From Flavobacteriales bacterium (GTDB lineage Bacteria > Bacteroidota > Bacteroidia > Flavobacteriales_D > Parvicellaceae), in the NCBI GenBank assembly GCA_029251405.1, contig JAQXDK010000016.1, forward strand, positions 1-64,000: DNA of 64,000 nt, read 5' to 3'. The notes beneath the pieces were generated by a model, which had not been told where the DNA came from, did not search any database, and saw nothing but the letters and a program-made list of their open reading frames with translations. Shown here piece by piece: positions 34,885 through 46,337 of this stretch; position 1 is the first letter of the stretch; the number at the start of each line of letters is the position of its first letter. The position numbers and the translations under genes are program-made.

Positions 34885-36138
34885 TTATAGATTTAAGATA
34901 ATGTATATAATACTAAATGAAATAAGGTAAAATATTCCTAATAACGACAATAACTTTAACCATTTAGGTGGCTGAAATTTATTTGGTAATTGTTTTTTTA
35001 TAACTAAATAATTAAAAATAGCTATGACTGGAGCAACTATAAAAGACAGTGCAGTTGCAAAATTAACCAATATACCGAAGTTGCCAGAATACTCATATTT
35101 ACAAATAATTACAAAAGTGCCAGACAAAAGAAGAAGAAGAATGATGTTGTAAAGTCTAGTGCCGTAGTTGTATTTGAGAGTGACTAATTCGAAAGTTTTT
35201 TTCACAGATCTGCTGTAGCCATCAAATACAGCTATGCAAGTACCAAACATAATGGAAAATGTGCTACAAGCGATAATAATATAACTCCAACTCCCAAATA
35301 CTTTAGTATATAGATTAACAACTTGGTTAGCAAATAAATGACTTTCTGCAGGTAGTTTATTTTCAGTTTTAAATATAAGAAATGCTCCCATTGTCATAAA
35401 CATGATCGATAGAAGTCCGGAAATTATGTATCCAAAATTAAATTCTGATAAGGTTTCTTTTAAGCTAGGGTGGTATTTTGTCGATTGGATTTTTTCAACA
35501 GTCCAAAGACTATTCCAAGTACTTAAATCAACAGCTGTGGGCATCCACCCCATAAGAGGAATAATAAAAAATAGTGCTTCTTTTTTTAATGAGAAATATT
35601 CAGAAAAATTAATTCCATTACCAACAGGCCCTTTGAAAATACAAAGTATAAAAGCAATAACAGTTGAAAATAACAATACAAGGCCAATGACTTTTATTAA
35701 TTGATCTAAGACTTTAAATTTTCCAATTACTAATAGAATCCCACAAATAGAAAGAATTAAAATAGTTGATTCAATGTTGTTAAATCCAATTTTCTGTAGT
35801 TGGAACAAGTTTTGCATGAACCCTGTAGTTACTTTAGCTACGGCTGCGCAAACAAAAAACATGGAGCCTATGGTGATTAAAAAATAGCACCAAAGAGCCC
35901 ACTTACTCAACTTTAAATAACCGTCTATAATGCTTTTCCCTGTCGCATTTGCATACCTGGATCCATATTCAAAGAAGGGGTATTTCAAAATATTTGCTAT
36001 TAATACAGCCCATAACAATCCAAAACCAAATAATGCTCCAGCTTTTGTGCTTTGTACTAAATGAGAGACACCAATAGCAGTACTCGCAAATAGTATTCCT
36101 GGACCTAAGGTTTTTTTTAAAGATTGTAAACGATTCAT
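34885..36138 (-). CDS. Nramp-family transporter with altered metal-site motifs
   Basis: A 417-residue inner-membrane protein with about 11 helices. GPGILFASTAIGVSHLV is the first helix and GWMPTAVDLSTWNSLW is in the sixth, both matching the Nramp fold. In classical Mn/Fe transporters the first helix has DPGN and the sixth MPH. Here these read AIGVSH and MPT, so the metal ligands are not the usual ones. This points to a divergent Nramp-like branch whose substrate may not be manganese or iron. It is divergent from bshC with an 89-base gap and sits upstream of the T9SS protein gene. Confidence 0.85.
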   Translation of the reverse strand: MNRLQSLKKTLGPGILFASTAIGVSHLVQSTKAGALFGFGLLWAVLIANILKYPFFEYGSRYANATGKSIIDGYLKLSKWALWCYFLITIGSMFFVCAAVAKVTTGFMQNLFQLQKIGFNNIESTILILSICGILLVIGKFKVLDQLIKVIGLVLLFSTVIAFILCIFKGPVGNGINFSEYFSLKKEALFFIIPLMGWMPTAVDLSTWNSLWTVEKIQSTKYHPSLKETLSEFNFGYIISGLLSIMFMTMGAFLIFKTENKLPAESHLFANQVVNLYTKVFGSWSYIIIACSTFSIMFGTCIAVFDGYSRSVKKTFELVTLKYNYGTRLYNIILLLLLSGTFVIICKYEYSGNFGILVNFATALSFIVAPVIAIFNYLVIKKQLPNKFQPPKWLKLLSLLGIFYLISFSIIYIILNL

Positions 36139-37790: not shown

Positions 37791-38117
37791 TATTTTATGG
37801 ATTTGTATCATGTATTTTGATTGAAAAAACAATTCTGTTAATTGCTCAAATTGATGCAAGTTGAATACTAAATTTATATTTTCAATATCAGTATTTATAA
37901 CCACATAATTTTTACCGTTATTTTCATATATATAGTTTTCTATATGGCAATCAATATTTTGAATATTATTATAAAATTCTTGAAAATCTTCTAGCTTGCA
38001 AGTGTAATGTAGATTATTAATCACCAAAGCAATTTTTTCACATTTTTTACATTGCACAATAATACCTAGATCATTTTCATGTAAAATATGTTCATGATTA
38101 GATGTTTCCTTAAACAT
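37773..38117 (-). CDS. DUF6686-like small cysteine protein
   Basis: A 114-residue protein with a CxxC near residues 23-26 (VQCKKCEK) in the context LGIIVQCKKCEKIALVINN, then further cysteines in HYTCKLED and IDCHIEN. This resembles the Bacteroidota DUF6686 family, though I am not fully sure. Metal or cluster binding is plausible. It overlaps the upstream hemerythrin-like gene by eight bases, so the two are one unit. Confidence 0.7.
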   Translation of the reverse strand: MFKETSNHEHILHENDLGIIVQCKKCEKIALVINNLHYTCKLEDFQEFYNNIQNIDCHIENYIYENNGKNYVVINTDIENINLVFNLHQFEQLTELFFQSKYMIQIHKILSNQF

Positions 38118-38829
38118 CTTTAAGATCTAACTCCTCCATTAAGTTCAATACTTTATTGGTAAGTACATGGTCTTCAATTTCTGCGTGGATATTTAAATCT
38201 TTTTGAAAAATGCTCATTTGATTAAGGAAAACTTCAAAGAAGGATAGTTTTTTACTATCAACTTTATAATTAATTAAAAGCCTTTGAAGATTATTTATTT
38301 CTTCACTATTTTTTTGATGATTTTTTAATTGATTTAGAACATTGTTTTTATTTTCTAACAAATAGATTAAATTTTCTTGTGAATTGGTTTTTGAATAGTT
38401 TACCAATACTTTACAAAAAGGAAATAAATTCTGTTCTTCATTTTTAAAATGTATAACTATGTCTTTTTTATATTCTTTAAAAAACTTAATAAACAGTAAA
38501 TTAAATGAGTGTTTTTCATGTAAGAAAGATTTATCTAGACTTTGCTCAATTTCAGGTATCCTTTTATTTAAGTAATAACTGTGAGACTTTTCAAGATAAT
38601 CTATCAAATCTAATATTTGATAACTTTCAAATGTTTTATTTTTAGCTAGATTTATATTGTTGTAACACTCTGCTAGGTCTACCAAGAGATTAGTATTGAT
38701 GTTATTTTTTTTACATATATCTTCTAAGTTGTTGTTGGACTCTGAATCGATATCATACCTTAAAAATAAATGTGTAATTGCTCTGTCGTATTCAGTGATG
38801 GTCTTTGGAGAAAGTAATTTTGAAATCAT
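38110..38829 (-). CDS. Hemerythrin-domain protein, RIC/ScdA-like
   Basis: A 239-residue cytoplasmic protein likely to carry a di-iron centre. Counted from the ATG at 38829, candidate ligands are H83 in EKSHSYYL, H104/H107 in LHEKHSF, H127 and E131 in VIHFKNEEQNLF, and H215, E217 and H221 in NIHAEIEDHVL. This resembles iron-sulfur cluster repair proteins (RIC, YtfE, ScdA) active under nitric oxide or oxidative stress. The N-terminal ScdA-type CC motif is missing. A TTG at 38847 overlaps the -7 promoter box, so the ATG is the better start. It precedes a DUF6686-like gene and follows a strong palindrome. Confidence 0.82.
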   Translation of the reverse strand: MISKLLSPKTITEYDRAITHLFLRYDIDSESNNNLEDICKKNNINTNLLVDLAECYNNINLAKNKTFESYQILDLIDYLEKSHSYYLNKRIPEIEQSLDKSFLHEKHSFNLLFIKFFKEYKKDIVIHFKNEEQNLFPFCKVLVNYSKTNSQENLIYLLENKNNVLNQLKNHQKNSEEINNLQRLLINYKVDSKKLSFFEVFLNQMSIFQKDLNIHAEIEDHVLTNKVLNLMEELDLKDV

Positions 38830-38844
38830 TTTAAACTTTATTAA

Positions 38845-38875
38845 CAAAGTACATGATTTAATATATAGAAATCAA
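38845..38875 (-). promoter_or_regulatory. Promoter of the hemerythrin-like gene
   Basis: On the minus strand TTG (38875-38873) lies 21 bases from TACTTTG (38851-38845), close to the -33 TTG and -7 TAnnTTTG boxes (one T short). The predicted transcript start is near 38838, giving a short leader before the ATG at 38829. The -33 box overlaps the palindrome at 38871-38898. Confidence 0.5.
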
Positions 38876-38898
38876 TACCTAATATTAGGTATATTGAT
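38871..38898. promoter_or_regulatory. Long palindrome, probable operator
   Basis: The perfect 12-base palindrome CCTAATATTAGG (38878-38889) is flanked by ATCAATA on the left and TATTGAT on the right, with a two-base offset, so the symmetry spans 28 bases. It covers the -33 box of the hemerythrin-like gene promoter. There is no T-run after it, so a terminator for the upstream DUF2490 gene is less likely. A Crp/Fnr or Rrf2-type regulator is a guess; the half site is not a clean match to either. Confidence 0.65.
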
Positions 38899-38899
38899 G

Positions 38900-39544
38900 C
38901 TAAAATTTGTTGCTAATTTTAAAGCCAAAGATGTTGAACGATTTAGGAAATTCAACATTAACATCGTTAATTTTAAGGTACTTAAATTCTAAACTTGTTT
39001 TTTTACTAAGTTTATATTTTAATCCAGTTCCAAATCTGTTTTTGGTATAGTTGTTAATAAAATCTCCATTCATTAAGAAGTACAATTCGTCATATAGATA
39101 AACACTTATTTTTTTAGATACCTTGTATTGAATTTTTAATCTGGTTCTTTCAATTAATTCATTTATTTTGGAATTGCTGATTTGGTACTGTGTTCTCAAC
39201 CTAAAATCAATTTTAAAATCAGAAATTTTATTTCGAAAAGATAAATCGTTATGAAATCTATTAGAAGTTGTATAAGAATAGTCGTCGTTTATGAATTTCA
39301 ATCTCCAAGCAAAGGAGGTACTTAGTTTTTTACTTAATTTTCTATCCAATGAGACTTGAGAATATATTTGATTTATTTGTCTAGAGTTGTCAAATGTTCT
39401 TAGTTCTGTTTTATTACACCACGAAGTTTTCTTATTAATTTTAAAAATGGAGCTTAATTTAGTCCATGTTCCAAAATCCTGATAAGGACTTTGTGAAAGC
39501 ATCAGTAATGGAGCGAAAACTAGAAGAACTAATAGTTTCTTCAT
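38900..39544 (-). CDS. DUF2490-family outer-membrane barrel protein
   Basis: A 214-residue protein with a signal peptide (MKKLLVLLVFAPLLMLS) followed by alternating amphipathic strands (LRTFDNSRQINQIYSQVSLDRKL, WRLKFINDDYSYTT). The family-typical FGTWTKLSSIFKINKKTS is at the start and a C-terminal aromatic residue (NKF) suits barrel insertion. It probably sits in the outer membrane; substrate is unknown. Two bases separate it from the lipoprotein gene upstream, so they form an operon. Confidence 0.82.
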   Translation of the reverse strand: MKKLLVLLVFAPLLMLSQSPYQDFGTWTKLSSIFKINKKTSWCNKTELRTFDNSRQINQIYSQVSLDRKLSKKLSTSFAWRLKFINDDYSYTTSNRFHNDLSFRNKISDFKIDFRLRTQYQISNSKINELIERTRLKIQYKVSKKISVYLYDELYFLMNGDFINNYTKNRFGTGLKYKLSKKTSLEFKYLKINDVNVEFPKSFNIFGFKISNKF

Positions 39545-39546
39545 TT

Positions 39547-39951
39547 TTAAATGTAATTAGCTATTCTAATGGTATCTAATTCATTAACGGTATTAGATTC
39601 GTTTATGGTTATACTTTGTATAATTACACTATCCTGTCCTTTAGGACAGTTCTGACAATCACTGTATACAAACACTTCATAATACCCTTTGTTTAAATAA
39701 TTAAACTCAAAACTTCCATCATAGCTAGTGCTTTGATCATCGTTGTAATTATTATTATCGTTTCCGTATATGATAAAAACATCTACATCCTGGGCATCGT
39801 ATGTATTTTCTGTAGTCCCATCAATAATATTAATATTGTCAATTATTACTTTTCCTTTAATTGAAGATCGTCCGCCAATGCCTTCAGATTTTGTACAAGA
39901 GAAAGTTAGAAATGTAAAAAGGATTGCTATAATTTTAAATTGGTTCATCAT
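39547..39951 (-). CDS. Small lipoprotein with Ig-like or CNA-B-like fold
   Basis: A 134-residue lipoprotein. The signal sequence ends with a lipobox, FLTFSC, putting the lipidated cysteine near residue 19. The mature part resembles a small beta domain of the carboxypeptidase-regulatory type (GKVIIDN...YDGSFEFNYLNKGYYEVFVYSDC). It probably faces the periplasm or the cell surface. It precedes the DUF2490 gene by two bases and follows the TonB receptor with a 95-base gap. The function is unknown. Confidence 0.75.
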   Translation of the reverse strand: MMNQFKIIAILFTFLTFSCTKSEGIGGRSSIKGKVIIDNINIIDGTTENTYDAQDVDVFIIYGNDNNNYNDDQSTSYDGSFEFNYLNKGYYEVFVYSDCQNCPKGQDSVIIQSITINESNTVNELDTIRIANYI

Positions 39952-40046: not shown

Positions 40047-42470
40047 TTAAATTTTAATTGCTAAGCAAACATAGAAATTCCTAGGCATAGATGGAATTAT
40101 CCCCGGACCAGGATATCCAACCGCTCTTCTTGTGAAATAAATTCTATTAGTTAAATTATTAATTCCAGCCTCTAATTGTACTTTCTTGTAATTATATTTT
40201 ACTGATAAGTCCATAACAGAGTAGGAAGGTATTTTCCCAATGACAGCATTACTTTGTTTTTCTGCGTTTGTAGCGTCGGTATATTGTTCTTGATTGAAAC
40301 TAAATTGGTAAGAAATAGAAAGCTTTTTTAAAGAAAAATTAATTCCGGACTTTAGAATAACTGGTGGTACCATTTCTACTTTTTTTCCAAAGAACGCTGG
40401 TTCATTAGAGGATATATATAAAGCATCGTTGTATGCGAAATTGAGGAAAGTTGACAAATTATAAGTCTTTTTATCGCTACTAAAATTAGTCCAATTAATT
40501 TCTAATACAGTTTCTACACCCAATGTTCTAGACTTGGAAATATTTGTTCGGTATTGGTAAGTATTAAAAAGACTTGAATCTGTTTCTAAAGTAGTTCCAA
40601 TTCTGTTATTATAATATAAATAGTAAAAAGAAGCGTCAAAATAAACAATGTCTTTTATCTTTCCTCGAATTCCAAGATCAGAATTAAAACCTCTTTCATC
40701 TTTTAAAATGGGGTCTATTCTAAAGTTGGGATTTCTTATTTGCATATCTGCAAAATTCACACTTCTGTAATTTTCAGAGATATTTGAATAGCATTCAATT
40801 TTTGATGAAATTTTGTAATTGAAACCAATACCAGCAAGTAAAAAGTCTCTGTCGTTAGTCCTGTTAATATTTATTACCGTGTCAAAAACTATATTTCCTG
40901 CAAGATCTGGGTATTCAATTCTATAGTTTCCTTCAGCAGAAGTGGATATATACTCGTAACGTAACCCAGGAGTAATACTTAGTTTTTCACTTAAATTAAA
41001 TATATGTTCTGCGAACAATGAAAAATTTAAACTTGGAAAATTATAATTACTTTCAATAAAGTCGGAAGAAATACTTTGTTTATTGTTTATAAATTGAAAA
41101 TTAGCATCACTTCCATTGCTTGCTTCACCTTGTATTCCTTTACTTTTTCCTTTGTAAATTCTAGCTCCAATTAAAAATGCCCATGGAAGATTTCTCTTTT
41201 CATATAAATGAATGAGTCTTGTTTCGTTACCAATATTTTTAAACTGTCCAGAAATTAAATTTCTTTCTAACATAGGATCAGCTCTATTAATTTGATCCAA
41301 GTAGCCTAAAGATTCTCTCGAAGCAATAAGTCCAAATGTTCTGGAGTTTATTTTAGTCGAGGAAGTCAATTCATAATTTAGATTAAAGGCAGCTAAATTC
41401 CAATCTACCTTAAACCAATTCCGAGTTCTTAAAGAAGTATCAGGATTTAAATTAAATTGTTGGTCAGTTAATCCTCCAGGCTGTTGAGCCAGATAATTCA
41501 TCTTAGTAAATTCTAAGTTTATACTTCCCATTTCATTAAAATTATTGGTAATACTTATATATCCGTTTTTTACATTAAAGTTAGAATTAGCTCTCCAGTC
41601 GTTACCAAATTTATAATTAACATAACTGTAATATTTCCATTTTTTAATAGTTCCTCCTGTACTTAAAAATGAATTATTCAAATTGTAAGAACCTAAAGTT
41701 TGTCTAAAAGTTGTTTCATTTTTTTTATTAGGGTTTCCATTCTTCAGCTTAAAATTTATTAATCCTCCAAATTGTGGTCCAAACTGAAGTGAGGCTGCTC
41801 CTCTTATAAATTGAATCTCCTTCACAGCTTCACTGGGAGGACTGTAGTAACTTTCCGGGTAACCTAAAGCATCAGCACTAATATCGTATCCATTTTGTCT
41901 GGTATTGAAATTTGAATTTCTACTAGGATTTAATCCTCTTCCTCCAAGACCTAATTGAATTCCTGCTCCGTCACTTTCCCAAATATTTAAACCTGGTATT
42001 TTAGCATAAATTTGGCGACTAAGATTTACAGCTTTGTTAGCATCAGTTTTTTCTAAGTCAATAGCCTCACTTTTTTTTCCTTGAGTAATCATTACACCTT
42101 CAATTGCTCTAAGTCTTCTTATATTAAATGTTCTTTCTTCTGTGAATTCATATTCTTCAAGCTTATAATTGATCTCATTCAAATAAATATTTTGAATTTT
42201 ATTTTGAAGAGAATCAATATTGATTCGAACTAATTTTTTTTCATATCCAAATGCATAGAAAAAGACATCATATTTTCCCATTTCTATTTTTGGGGAGTTG
42301 TAAAATCCAGATGAGTTACTGTAGATTATTTTATCGATAGAATCAAAGTAAATAGTTGCATTAGGAATTATAGATTCTGTCTCGTCATATACAAATCCAT
42401 ATATTTTACCTTTTTGAGAAAAAGTAAAACCGTAAATTATAAATAATAAAAAGGTGATTTTAATCCTCAT
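40047..42470 (-). CDS. TonB-dependent outer-membrane receptor
   Basis: Imports a substrate, probably an iron complex, through the outer membrane. The 807-residue protein has a signal peptide (RIKITFLLFIIYGFTFS), a carboxypeptidase-like beta domain (about 20-95), a plug (about 120-240, with GLGGRGLNPSRNSN and EIQFIRGAASLQFGPQFGG) and a 22-strand-type barrel ending YVCLAIKI. The plug reads like FecA-type receptors. It is the last gene of a four-gene unit with HTTM, imelysin and DUF4856 proteins, overlapping HTTM by 11 bases. The iron link comes from this context and a Fur-like box, not from the receptor alone. Confidence 0.92.
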   Translation of the reverse strand: MRIKITFLLFIIYGFTFSQKGKIYGFVYDETESIIPNATIYFDSIDKIIYSNSSGFYNSPKIEMGKYDVFFYAFGYEKKLVRINIDSLQNKIQNIYLNEINYKLEEYEFTEERTFNIRRLRAIEGVMITQGKKSEAIDLEKTDANKAVNLSRQIYAKIPGLNIWESDGAGIQLGLGGRGLNPSRNSNFNTRQNGYDISADALGYPESYYSPPSEAVKEIQFIRGAASLQFGPQFGGLINFKLKNGNPNKKNETTFRQTLGSYNLNNSFLSTGGTIKKWKYYSYVNYKFGNDWRANSNFNVKNGYISITNNFNEMGSINLEFTKMNYLAQQPGGLTDQQFNLNPDTSLRTRNWFKVDWNLAAFNLNYELTSSTKINSRTFGLIASRESLGYLDQINRADPMLERNLISGQFKNIGNETRLIHLYEKRNLPWAFLIGARIYKGKSKGIQGEASNGSDANFQFINNKQSISSDFIESNYNFPSLNFSLFAEHIFNLSEKLSITPGLRYEYISTSAEGNYRIEYPDLAGNIVFDTVININRTNDRDFLLAGIGFNYKISSKIECYSNISENYRSVNFADMQIRNPNFRIDPILKDERGFNSDLGIRGKIKDIVYFDASFYYLYYNNRIGTTLETDSSLFNTYQYRTNISKSRTLGVETVLEINWTNFSSDKKTYNLSTFLNFAYNDALYISSNEPAFFGKKVEMVPPVILKSGINFSLKKLSISYQFSFNQEQYTDATNAEKQSNAVIGKIPSYSVMDLSVKYNYKKVQLEAGINNLTNRIYFTRRAVGYPGPGIIPSMPRNFYVCLAIKI

Positions 42471-43845
42471 ACTTTAAGATCCATTCTTTATGTTTTAATC
42501 CTCTTTTTATGTTGCTTAAATTAACATTACTATTTATAAAATCTTTACTTCCTTTATTGAATAAACTGACCTTTACTTTAGCTGTGATTTTAGGATTTTC
42601 GCCTAAATAAATAATTTCACCATTAGATTCGTTTATTGTTGAATCTTTAAACTCTGATGACAAGAAGTGTGCAAATTGTAAAATCATGTCTGGTTGTGTT
42701 GCCATCATTTTTTCTTGTTGAGGAGTTAGATAATTTTGATTTTCGATTAACATTTTGCGATTCATTCTGGGCTCATGAATAAAAAACTGAGCATAACCAG
42801 CTTTTTCAATGAGCATTACCCTCCAACTAAATCTGTAGCCTTGTTCTGTCCAAAAAAGTTTTCCAGGGTACAATAGAAATCTTAAAGGAAGTATTAATTG
42901 GAGAATAAAAAAGACTGTTAATAACAACTTAATTAACAAGTTTTTTTCCTTTTTAGAGTTAATTATTTCATTTTGGTATTTTTTTAAAAATTTATTTTTA
43001 TTAATAAAAGAGAGTAATTTTTCATGAAATTCATCACTAAAGAAAATTAGAGTAGTAAAAATCATTACTAATGGAAAAACTCCTATTGGAAACATAATAG
43101 ATGTTAGTATGTGGAATAGGACCACTAACAAATAGCCATAAATTCTATATCTTCTATTTATTAGTATAAAAAATATGAGTAGATCGAATAAGGCACCAGA
43201 CCAACTGAATATATATGCTGCATAGTCATTTAGAAATAAGTTCCCAAAGAGGGGGAAGTCTGACTGGTGTTTTAACCAGTTAGAAAGCGGCTGGGCTTCA
43301 ATTAACCAGTGGTAGTTTAGCTTTGCTATTCCAGCAAAAAAGTATACAACACCAACCTGTAATTTGATGATATTTATTTTCCACGCTTCTATAAATCTTT
43401 TCTCTTTTGTTATTCCCAGAAGATTATCTATTGATAAAAATTTATTAGCTGGCAAGAATATCATTATAAAACTCATTAAGGAAATAAAATAATAATGATT
43501 TAGATAATTAGTTTTATCAATTAATTCAATGTAGGTAAAAACTAAGAAAAACATAACAGCGCTGATTCTGTAAAAAAGCCCTAAAGTAATTAGTAAAGAA
43601 AATACAAGTAACAAAGCAAAGGCGCCATAAATGAAATTTTCACCTACTGGTGATATCCAATCGAAGCCTTTGTAGGTGAAAAAATATGTCGGTTTTAGAT
43701 AAAGATCATAAACCCAACCTTTTAAAATGAATCTTAAGGTGCTTGTAAATAATATGATACCAAAAAATATACGGAATACTACTAGGGGATATATGCTTAC
43801 AAAATTCTTTGTTAAATGGTTAAACCATTTATTAATCTCCATCAT
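42460..43845 (-). CDS. HTTM-domain integral membrane protein
   Basis: A 461-residue protein with about eight or more membrane helices in the HTTM domain (about 12-300), related to vitamin K-dependent gamma-carboxylase. Helices such as YPLVVFRIFFGIILFTSTL and GENFIYGAFALLLVFSLLI are clear. The C-terminal part (RVMLIEKAGYAQFFIHEP...) is soluble and likely periplasmic. HTTM genes often sit beside imelysin genes in Bacteroidota. The reaction is unknown. It overlaps the imelysin gene by 14 bases and the receptor by 11. Confidence 0.88.
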   Translation of the reverse strand: MMEINKWFNHLTKNFVSIYPLVVFRIFFGIILFTSTLRFILKGWVYDLYLKPTYFFTYKGFDWISPVGENFIYGAFALLLVFSLLITLGLFYRISAVMFFLVFTYIELIDKTNYLNHYYFISLMSFIMIFLPANKFLSIDNLLGITKEKRFIEAWKINIIKLQVGVVYFFAGIAKLNYHWLIEAQPLSNWLKHQSDFPLFGNLFLNDYAAYIFSWSGALFDLLIFFILINRRYRIYGYLLVVLFHILTSIMFPIGVFPLVMIFTTLIFFSDEFHEKLLSFINKNKFLKKYQNEIINSKKEKNLLIKLLLTVFFILQLILPLRFLLYPGKLFWTEQGYRFSWRVMLIEKAGYAQFFIHEPRMNRKMLIENQNYLTPQQEKMMATQPDMILQFAHFLSSEFKDSTINESNGEIIYLGENPKITAKVKVSLFNKGSKDFINSNVNLSNIKRGLKHKEWILKYED

Positions 43846-45028
43846 TGTCTTGATAGGTAATTAAGACTCCTAACCCTGAAGTCATATCTACTTTAATAAA
43901 AGGAACCAACTTTTGCAATTCTTCATAAGAATTCAGTAGAGCATCTTTGTTATTCATAATTGCCTCACTTAAAGGATTGTTGTAATTATTTAATTCTTCC
44001 AGTATAGTAACAATTTGGTTGTCAATTACCTTTGAAAGTTGCATGTTATTATATTCTGCGTTTACAAAGTTCATGTAATCATCTAGCCCTAATCCATTAT
44101 CATTATTTATGTAACCAGAACCATTGATGAAATTTCTAATGGAGTTTATACATCTTGTGGTGTTTTGTAGTGATTTTCCTGAGTAATAACATTCTACTAA
44201 ATGAGGAAGCTCTTGTTGTGAAAAACCATTAAATACTCCTAGCGGAAGTCCAATTTTCCCTCTTCTTACATAAAATTCGTAATGAAGACACAATGCATTA
44301 ATAATGTTACTTATTGAACTGCCCTGAGAGTTACTTGAAAAGCCAGAATTATTGATTTCAAAATCATTTATAAAATTACTTTTATGGTTTATCCATTCAT
44401 TATTTACATAATTAATATTAACCATTAAATCATCTGTAATTGCTTTAAGATATTCTTTGGCATTTGCGTTAGATATATAATAATTTATCAATTGTAAATC
44501 TGAATATCCAGGTTTGTGGAGTAAATAATCAAGGGCTTGTAAACCTTTAGAATCGTTGTAAGTAGCATTATGAAAATTCCATTCAGCATTTAAAATAGAA
44601 TTATTTACTTCAGTGGTGTCAATTGGATAGGTATTTGTCTGAGATCTTAAAAGAATATATTCTGAAGGTCCAAAATCTAAAAAAGCAATATCCTGCCAAT
44701 TTAGATGAGTCTCTTCCCAAGAAGACCTCAAATTATTTAAGTTAATGATATTCGGACTTAATATAAATAAATCGGTGCTGGTATTTAGAAGAGTTACTTT
44801 GTTTTTATAAGATTCTATAGAGGGTAAAATATAGTTGTTGGTAAGGTTGGTAAGCAAATCGAACTTATCGAAGTCTTGGTATTGGCAACTGTTGTCATTT
44901 TTTTCTGCTTCATTGCTGTAGTTAATGGCAACAGGATCGGTACAGCCTTTTTTTTGACAACTAATACACATCAAAAGAATCAGTATGAAGAATAATGTGT
45001 AGCTTAAAACAAAAGATTTATATCTCAT
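43832..45028 (-). CDS. Imelysin-family lipoprotein
   Basis: An approximately 398-residue lipoprotein with the lipobox LLMCISC and mature start CQKKGCTDPVAINYS. The imelysin (IrpA) fold is seen in IAFLDFGPSEYILL, NAEWNFHNATYNDSKGLQALDYLL and SKVIDNQIVTILEE. Imelysins are iron-regulated periplasmic or surface proteins. The start at ATG 45028 gives a clean signal; an upstream frame to 45055 would cross into a hairpin. The N-terminal CTDPxAxNY module is shared with the DUF4856 protein. It lies between DUF4856 and HTTM genes. Confidence 0.88.
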   Translation of the reverse strand: MRYKSFVLSYTLFFILILLMCISCQKKGCTDPVAINYSNEAEKNDNSCQYQDFDKFDLLTNLTNNYILPSIESYKNKVTLLNTSTDLFILSPNIINLNNLRSSWEETHLNWQDIAFLDFGPSEYILLRSQTNTYPIDTTEVNNSILNAEWNFHNATYNDSKGLQALDYLLHKPGYSDLQLINYYISNANAKEYLKAITDDLMVNINYVNNEWINHKSNFINDFEINNSGFSSNSQGSSISNIINALCLHYEFYVRRGKIGLPLGVFNGFSQQELPHLVECYYSGKSLQNTTRCINSIRNFINGSGYINNDNGLGLDDYMNFVNAEYNNMQLSKVIDNQIVTILEELNNYNNPLSEAIMNNKDALLNSYEELQKLVPFIKVDMTSGLGVLITYQDNDGD

Positions 45029-45040
45029 ATATTTATAATA

Positions 45041-45078
45041 AAGCCCAATACACACTAATTAGCGTGCATTGGGTGCTT
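45041..45078 (-). other. Intercistronic hairpin between DUF4856 and imelysin genes
   Basis: A 38-base inverted repeat lies in the 69-base gap between the DUF4856 stop and the imelysin ATG. Pairs are AAG/CTT, CCCAAT/ATTGGG, CAC/GTG and CTAA/TTAG. On the plus strand two A-C mismatches break the stem, but in the minus-strand RNA these become G-U pairs. This asymmetry favours a structure in the operon mRNA. No strong U-run follows on that strand, so attenuation or mRNA stabilisation is likelier than full termination. Confidence 0.7.
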
Positions 45079-45097
45079 GTTTTTTTAATAGATTATT

Positions 45098-46237
45098 TTA
45101 GAAATCATTTTTCTTGTCAGTCAATCCGCTAGCAGCTGCAACTTGATCAATACTGGAGTTTATTTCCATAATGTTTTGACTTATTCCAGCAACAGACTGT
45201 TCAATTTGGTTCACTATACTCATCACTTCTGTGTAAGACATGTCTGGGTTGTCTGTCACAAATTGAATTCCATAAATAAAGGCTAAAGCTTCTGACATAC
45301 TGTGGTTAATAGAAGATTGATCACCGCCAGAACTTACTTGAGCTTTAACATCGTTTAAATAATGCAGAGCCATTCCTGCAACCATTTGTTTGGATTCAGA
45401 TTTAATAATTTCAGCTTGGTATAATGCATCAGCGATATTACCGGACGCAATTGCAGCTCTACCAGTTCTAAAAGCAGTTGCAATATCAGTAGCACTTCCA
45501 ATATTATCTTCTAAATATGATTTATTTGCATATTTCCCCCAGAATCTATTAGTTCCGTTTGTTGGGTAATCAGGAGCATCTGTAAAGTAGCCATAAGCTT
45601 CGTCCCAATGATGTTCCATTTCTGTGTAAAATTCACCTTCTATAATTTCTGTATTATCGTCTTCAGAAATCCCACCTAAATAGTTGGAAGTCAACTGGCT
45701 AACAAAACAGGCGCTCATTAGTCCTTTTTCTATCACCTGAGTCCATTCTAATCCTGAAGAATCTTGAAGATAAGAAGCATTTGAACTGGGAGTAGCAGCA
45801 GCTGCAGCAGTCATCCATCCTTCAAACATAGCTTGAATTCCAGCATCACCTAATGCAGTTTTACTTTTTAATTGTTTACCATTGTCATCTAATTCGGAAT
45901 CATCCCAATTAGTGTAAGTATTATCATACATTGAAAGTAGAACTGCAGCATCTAAAGTTACAGCAGCATTATTGTTTGCTGTTTTCAAGTAAGTTACCAT
46001 TTCAGAAAGCATATCCATTCTTGCGGTTTGTCCAGTAAATGATACGGTGTTGTTGCCGTTTAAATCTGTAAATTCATAATTTTGAGGAACAGTATATGAA
46101 TAGTCGCAGTTGTTGTCAGTTTTTTCAGCATTTGAGTCGTAATTAGCAGCTGTGGGATCCATACATCCTTTTTTTGCACAACTTGCGAAAAGTACTGTTG
46201 CTATTAAAAGCATTGAGATTTTATTAATTAATGTCAT
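45098..46237 (-). CDS. DUF4856-family lipoprotein
   Basis: A 379-residue lipoprotein whose signal ends ATVLFASC with the lipidated cysteine just before AKKGCMDPTAANYD. The rest matches the DUF4856 family of Bacteroidota, structurally like imelysin, with ALGDAGIQAMFEGWMT and EMEHHWDEAYGYFTDAP, the latter histidine- and acid-rich. A TTG at 46267 overlaps the -7 box, so ATG 46237 is the better start. It is the first gene of the iron-type operon and has a promoter and Fur-like palindrome upstream. Function is unknown; iron or another metal is inferred from neighbours. Confidence 0.86.
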   Translation of the reverse strand: MTLINKISMLLIATVLFASCAKKGCMDPTAANYDSNAEKTDNNCDYSYTVPQNYEFTDLNGNNTVSFTGQTARMDMLSEMVTYLKTANNNAAVTLDAAVLLSMYDNTYTNWDDSELDDNGKQLKSKTALGDAGIQAMFEGWMTAAAAATPSSNASYLQDSSGLEWTQVIEKGLMSACFVSQLTSNYLGGISEDDNTEIIEGEFYTEMEHHWDEAYGYFTDAPDYPTNGTNRFWGKYANKSYLEDNIGSATDIATAFRTGRAAIASGNIADALYQAEIIKSESKQMVAGMALHYLNDVKAQVSSGGDQSSINHSMSEALAFIYGIQFVTDNPDMSYTEVMSIVNQIEQSVAGISQNIMEINSSIDQVAAASGLTDKKNDF

Positions 46238-46264
46238 AACTAAATTTTGAGTTTTAATTTTAGA

Positions 46265-46295
46265 CAAATGTAGCTGCAGTTCTGCTTTGAGACAA
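46265..46295 (-). promoter_or_regulatory. Promoter of the DUF4856-imelysin-HTTM-receptor operon
   Basis: On the minus strand TTG (46295-46293) is separated by 20 bases from TACATTTG (46272-46265), a full match to the TTG / TAnnTTTG promoter. The transcript should start near 46258, about 20 bases before the ATG at 46237. A small inverted repeat AATACCA (46294-46300) / TGGTATT (46307-46313) covers the -33 side. Confidence 0.75.
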
Positions 46296-46312
46296 TACCA
46301 TTTTTGTGGTAT

Positions 46313-46329
46313 TTTAGAATGATTCTAAA
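46313..46329. promoter_or_regulatory. Fur-family-like operator (8-1-8 palindrome)
   Basis: TTTAGAATGATTCTAAA is a perfect 8-1-8 inverted repeat, the layout of Fur/PerR/Zur operators. It lies 17 bases upstream of the -33 box of the DUF4856 operon. The centre allows no RNA loop, so it is a DNA site and not a terminator for the upstream DUF423 gene. Iron-type neighbours support Fur, but PerR or Zur cannot be ruled out from the half site alone. Confidence 0.65.
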
Positions 46330-46337
46330 TAAGAGTT

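Follow-up and report, generated by a model that had tools for sequence, protein, structure and literature searches.

In a 64,000-nucleotide stretch of DNA from a Flavobacteriales bacterium (contig JAQXDK010000016.1, positions 1 to 64,000; hereafter the window) we analyzed a four-gene operon on the minus strand that encodes a DUF4856 lipoprotein, an imelysin lipoprotein, an HTTM protein and a TonB-dependent receptor (TBDR). We found that the HTTM protein is, by fold and active site, a homolog of vitamin K-dependent gamma-carboxylase (VKGC), and we are nearly certain that the four-gene set is an iron operon controlled by Fur. The reading we favor, with some confidence, is that of a Fur-repressed iron-uptake operon containing a VKGC-type enzyme that acts on either a component of the operon or an imported ligand. 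It builds on the gene content, the conserved gene order, the conserved Fur box, the VKGC fold and the intact catalytic residues, all of which were observed directly.

Gene content and Fur control of the operon

An earlier note on this DNA had described four genes in one direction, and Pfam searches identified all of them in the places given there. The DUF4856 gene lies at 45098-46267 (PF16148, E 1.7e-47), with its likely start at the ATG at 46237 and not at the mechanically assigned TTG, and is followed by the imelysin gene at 43832-45055 (PF09375, E 2.5e-25; likely start ATG at 45028). The HTTM gene at 42460-43845 matches PF05090 (E 4.3e-70) and also PF22777, VKGC_lumenal_dom (E 1.9e-46), a domain which the earlier note had missed. 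The TBDR gene occupies 40047-42470 (PF00593, E 1.6e-31) and encodes a siderophore/FecA-like barrel with an N-terminal carboxypeptidase-regulatory-like domain; both the barrel (PF00593, 111.1 bits) and the plug (PF07715, 25.1 bits) score above their cut-offs. The overlaps of 14 bases between the imelysin and HTTM genes (43832-43845) and of 11 bases between the HTTM and TBDR genes (42460-42470) are as had been described. Likewise, the assignment of DUF4856 and imelysin as lipoproteins agrees with a lipobox cysteine that is invariant among 59 and 51 aligned homologs, respectively.

The full promoter and the Fur-like palindrome ascribed to this operon are both present. The promoter is of the Bacteroidota type, TTG-N20-TACATTTG, and spans 46265-46295 on the minus strand, with the TTG at 46293-46295 and TACATTTG at 46265-46272. 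The palindrome is an exact 8-1-8 repeat, TTTAGAAT-G-ATTCTAAA, at 46313-46329. The 19-mer that contains it, TTTTAGAATGATTCTAAAT (46312-46330, no strand assigned), matches 17 of 19 positions of the Fur consensus ATTTAGAATTATTCTAAAT, which was derived in Riemerella anatipestifer (PMC5609570). The window has no higher-scoring site, and a score of 17/19 did not occur in 20 Markov-simulated 64-kb sequences. The genome carries two FUR-family genes. When the best site per operon was taken from the 200 bases before DUF4856 in 123 related operons, a Fur box of at least 15/19 was found in 106, compared to 1.7% of shuffles.

A 2017 study of Fur in Riemerella found that RAYM_09779 (TBDR), RAYM_09784 ("vitamin K-dependent gamma-carboxylase"), RAYM_09789 (imelysin) and RAYM_09794 (hypothetical) rise under iron restriction, and listed them as Fur-regulated with no functions assigned (PMC5609570). 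The position of RAYM_09794 suggests that it is the DUF4856 protein. Since the Fur box is conserved phylum-wide and the corresponding Riemerella block responds to iron and Fur, the link to iron and Fur drawn in the earlier note is well supported. Since the set was already listed in the Riemerella Fur regulon, the iron response itself is partly published and is not new.

The HTTM protein and human GGCX

A sequence search with the HTTM protein matched structures of human GGCX (E 6e-32). Its AlphaFold2 model (pLDDT 88) also matched GGCX with Foldseek (E 1.6e-20), and 429 of 461 residues could be superposed on the human enzyme (VIA Z 30.3, 3.2 A). The relation to a carboxylase family that had been noticed before is thus right and closer than was thought, as the protein has the full GGCX-type fold and keeps the catalytic residues.

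The 2025 cryo-EM work on GGCX identified K218 as the base and N159, H160 and Y395 as contacts of the glutamate side chain; F286, F294, F299, H160, V210, M401 and W223 form the naphthoquinone pocket, and A214 and G259 are part of the tunnel for the tail (PMC12589487). In the HTTM protein K175 corresponds to the catalytic base K218. We compared these positions, in human numbering, in the window protein and 102 other operon copies (n = 103). K218, N159, H160, W223, F286, F294, F299, A214, W399 and M402 are invariant, G259 is kept in 100 copies, and V210 and Y395 (Tyr or Phe) are nearly invariant. The position of M401 is Val in all copies and that of K217 is mostly Ala or Ser. Our reading is that the quinone chemistry has been kept and that the mode of holding the substrate is unlike that of GGCX. 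We consider it highly probable that the HTTM protein has the catalytic competence of a VKGC-type enzyme; we do not claim that it is a protein carboxylase like GGCX.

Distribution, partner proteins and the substrate of the enzyme

We scanned GTDB genomes with DUF4856 and obtained 79 loci, and the order DUF4856-imelysin-HTTM-TBDR recurs in most of the complete ones. A second survey, which avoided the bias toward DUF4856, took the VKGC lumenal domain as query against 296 Bacteroidota genomes and found it in 68 genomes and in 40 of 140 genera. At 60 of the 77 VKGC loci the gene is flanked on its own strand by an imelysin immediately upstream and by a TBDR downstream, and 55 of these also have DUF4856; the other 17 VKGCs are located elsewhere. 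The neighborhood is therefore conserved across Bacteroidota, a point the earlier note had put forward for checking, and VKGC is linked to the operon in about a fifth of the sampled genomes. VKGC occurs together with imelysin in 61 of the 68 genomes (Fisher p 3e-45), and VKGC and DUF4856 are common to 46 genomes (p 3e-32).

The DUF4856 protein scores 162.6 bits against a Pfam cut-off of 22.3. Its TEMEHHWDE motif is invariant and NHxLSE is nearly so, and by their sequence such HxxxE-like patterns could bind metal. The model is confident and all-helical (pLDDT 93.6) and gave no clear match among PDB structures (best Foldseek E 0.53). Compared to the imelysin fold, 3n8u reached a VIA Z of 5.3 at rank 33, below the helical-bundle background, and hhalign aligned DUF4856 to imelysin over the signal peptide alone. 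The imelysin itself gave a full-length profile match to 3pf0 (E 2.3e-19) which includes the very C-terminus, LGIRVGFNSTDGD. Its GxxxxE-type motif reads GLQALD/GFPALD, with no His, as in IPPA, and with Asp in place of Glu as the acidic residue. By sequence, then, this is an imelysin of the IPPA/PA4372 kind. The C-terminus (43832-43850 in the window) ends in DGD, and an acidic DGD or DSD tail is found phylum-wide in almost all complete copies. We considered this tail as a recognition signal for VKGC and rejected it as unspecific because VKGC-less operons and Psychrobacter IPPA have it too.

We propose that under iron limitation Fur would leave the promoter and the operon would be derepressed. 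The TBDR would then bring a ferric complex into the periplasm, where the IPPA-type imelysin and the DUF4856 lipoprotein may bind the complex, its ligand or the receptor. In the inner membrane the GGCX-like HTTM enzyme would use menaquinol and O2 to generate a strong base, in the manner of GGCX, and would deprotonate a substrate in the periplasm, most likely with addition of CO2 to glutamates of a partner protein from the same operon. Iron would cross the inner membrane through a separate transporter. Within this model we infer the catalysis, the substrate and the direction of iron flow. The genome makes menaquinone (menB is present), thus the cofactor could be remade.

The clustering of the genes suggests that a partner protein is probably the substrate. 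That an operon protein becomes carboxylated is a possibility we hold tentatively, and the fuller version, in which a menaquinol-dependent glutamate carboxylase converts Glu to Gla in a partner lipoprotein or receptor to make metal-binding proteins for iron capture, we think unlikely. Several observations weigh against these readings. No conserved glutamates specific to VKGC-bearing operons were found: DUF4856, imelysin and TBDR keep all well-conserved Glu residues in eight genomes that have the operon and no detectable VKGC. Five of these eight are closely related, and on the imelysin tree the VKGC-less operons are nested among VKGC-bearing ones with at least three label changes. Because the operon repeatedly persists without it, VKGC seems to be accessory, with the two lipoproteins and the receptor forming the core. 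VKOR recycles the epoxide in animals; it was not found in this genome, and across the sample VKOR and VKGC were not associated (16 genomes shared, 16.5 expected). Finally, the substrate-backbone contacts of GGCX are changed in the operon copies (N158 to Leu, R436 to Gln or Met), and the HTTM protein ends at about GGCX residue 507, so that part of the propeptide-binding region is missing. Simple Gla formation is thus weakened by the equal conservation of Glu without VKGC, the lack of VKOR and the loss of propeptide-binding parts. The first and the last of these points, together with the loss of the N158 and R436 contacts next to a retained quinone pocket, would fit an enzyme that acts on an imported small molecule, such as a siderophore or other organic ligand, and frees its iron, for instance by proton abstraction, carboxylation or oxygenation, as would the clustering of VKGC with a siderophore/FecA-type receptor. 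However, the residues that contact the Glu side chain in GGCX (N159, H160 and, mostly, Y395) are kept, and we know of no VKGC that acts on a small molecule; we regard this explanation as rather unlikely.

Other explanations do away with the enzyme or with iron. A catalytically dead VKGC homolog serving as a chaperone or scaffold in the assembly of a lipoprotein or the receptor would be consistent with the loss of VKGC from operons that are otherwise kept and with the differences from GGCX at K217, M401 and N158. But the catalytic lysine and the aromatics of the quinone pocket are present in 103 of 103 copies, which would not be expected of a dead enzyme, and in GGCX K217A impairs substrate binding and not catalysis (PMC12589487), so we find this improbable. 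The earlier note had the HTTM protein in a surface-to-cytoplasm route for metal. An inner-membrane permease would suit a multi-helix membrane protein whose gene lies between those of a periplasmic lipoprotein and a receptor, but the protein shares its fold and catalytic residues with the enzyme GGCX, and at least three separate lineages retain an operon that lacks the HTTM gene. We have therefore dropped the permease, which we hold to be extremely improbable. An operon for a different metal or for a non-iron ligand, under incidental Fur control, is also very unlikely: imelysins do lack a proven ligand, as IPPA and PIBO bound neither ferric ion nor heme in thermofluor assays (PMC3143127), yet the Fur box is conserved phylum-wide and expression in Riemerella is iron-responsive.

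Second palindrome, neighboring genes and related systems

The promoter contains a second palindrome, ATACC-N8-GGTAT (46295-46312, no strand assigned), which overlaps the -33 TTG and was missed in the earlier note. It is conserved in close relatives, and in aligned promoters of relatives this block is conserved better than the Fur box. Of the 68 promoters in the first set 40 carry it, compared to 0.015% of shuffles, with a spacing that is always 8 and never 3-7 or 9-14; in the second set of 55 promoters it is absent. A search of the genome gave three exact sites (the operon promoter, the inside of an open reading frame and upstream of a hemerythrin gene), a count that is not by itself unusual since a reversed control pattern occurs twice per strand. 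The case for a second operator thus rests on the conserved position and spacing and not on the genome-wide count. The copy at 38875-38892 (no strand assigned) lies upstream of the adjacent gene for a hemerythrin (HHE) domain protein (38110-38847, minus strand), and the palindrome also precedes this gene in seven relatives that have it near the operon. Because the palindrome recurs in both promoters, the iron operon and the hemerythrin-domain gene seem to share a regulator and are likely co-regulated.

Outside the operon, about 4 kb downstream on the same strand, an NRAMP-like membrane protein (34885-36138) is a candidate inner-membrane metal transporter. The operon is followed by a DUF2490 protein and a 134-residue lipoprotein (38900-39951) here and, among relatives, only in the closest ones (L002, L003, L004 and L019). 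A fatty-acid hydroxylase-family membrane protein (PF04116) is encoded in or after the operon at two VKGC-less loci and in Tenacibaculum (L022 12871-13827, L023 12985-13923 and L071 10447-11424), and in the Tenacibaculum operon VKGC follows the receptor. A second group of Bacteroidota VKGCs, which keeps K218 and H160, lies outside the iron operon directly behind ribF, for FAD synthetase/riboflavin kinase (L149, L164 and L180); seven further loci look alike by the sizes of their open reading frames (L154, L157, L165, L168, L169, L181 and L182). DHOR, a di-heme enzyme, lies beside imelysin in all nine imelysin genomes without VKGC. At two loci (L148 and L179) DHOR and imelysin are clustered with VKGC and a TonB receptor. 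This hybrid of the present operon with the proteobacterial type of imelysin operon led us to reject VKGC as a strict substitute for DHOR.

The closest known system, Riemerella RAYM_09779-09794, has locus tags for the TBDR, the annotated carboxylase and imelysin that run in the same order, with a hypothetical protein at the place of DUF4856, is regulated by iron and Fur and shares the Fur consensus; it is a table entry whose function was not studied there (PMC5609570). Human GGCX shares the fold over 429 residues, the catalytic lysine, N159/H160 and the vitamin K pocket. In contrast, the operon protein is about 24% identical to it, lacks the Arch and the C-terminal part of the propeptide-binding region, is changed at K217, N158, M401 and R436, and comes from a genome in which VKOR was not found. 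The imelysin resembles the IPPA/PA4372 type (3pf0) in its full-length profile match, including the DGD end, and its His-less motif. The imelysin-DUF1111 operons of Proteobacteria are also Fur-controlled, but here DUF4856, VKGC and a TonB receptor replace the second imelysin and the di-heme enzyme. The Leptospira LruB locus (imelysin, di-heme oxidoreductase, imelysin and a nearby TonB receptor) likewise has imelysins induced by iron limitation near a TonB receptor, whereas a di-heme enzyme stands in the place of VKGC and DUF4856 is not mentioned (PMC13066512).

The earlier note had called this an uncharacterized system. The literature searched contained no functional description of it; the set had, however, already been listed in a Fur regulon. 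What is new is the active site of VKGC, which is intact, its phylum-wide linkage and its repeated absence, and the second operator.

Blood clotting and bone are the settings in which VKGC-type enzymes are familiar; for their bacterial relatives this conserved, iron-regulated operon supplies three defined candidate partners. It gives a direct test of whether bacteria use vitamin K-dependent carboxylase chemistry, and it brings an enzymatic step into the iron-uptake theme of an imelysin, a modifying or redox enzyme and a TonB receptor. If Gla formation on a partner protein were true, the operon would represent a vitamin K-dependent modification system native to bacteria, common among Bacteroidota and induced by iron starvation.

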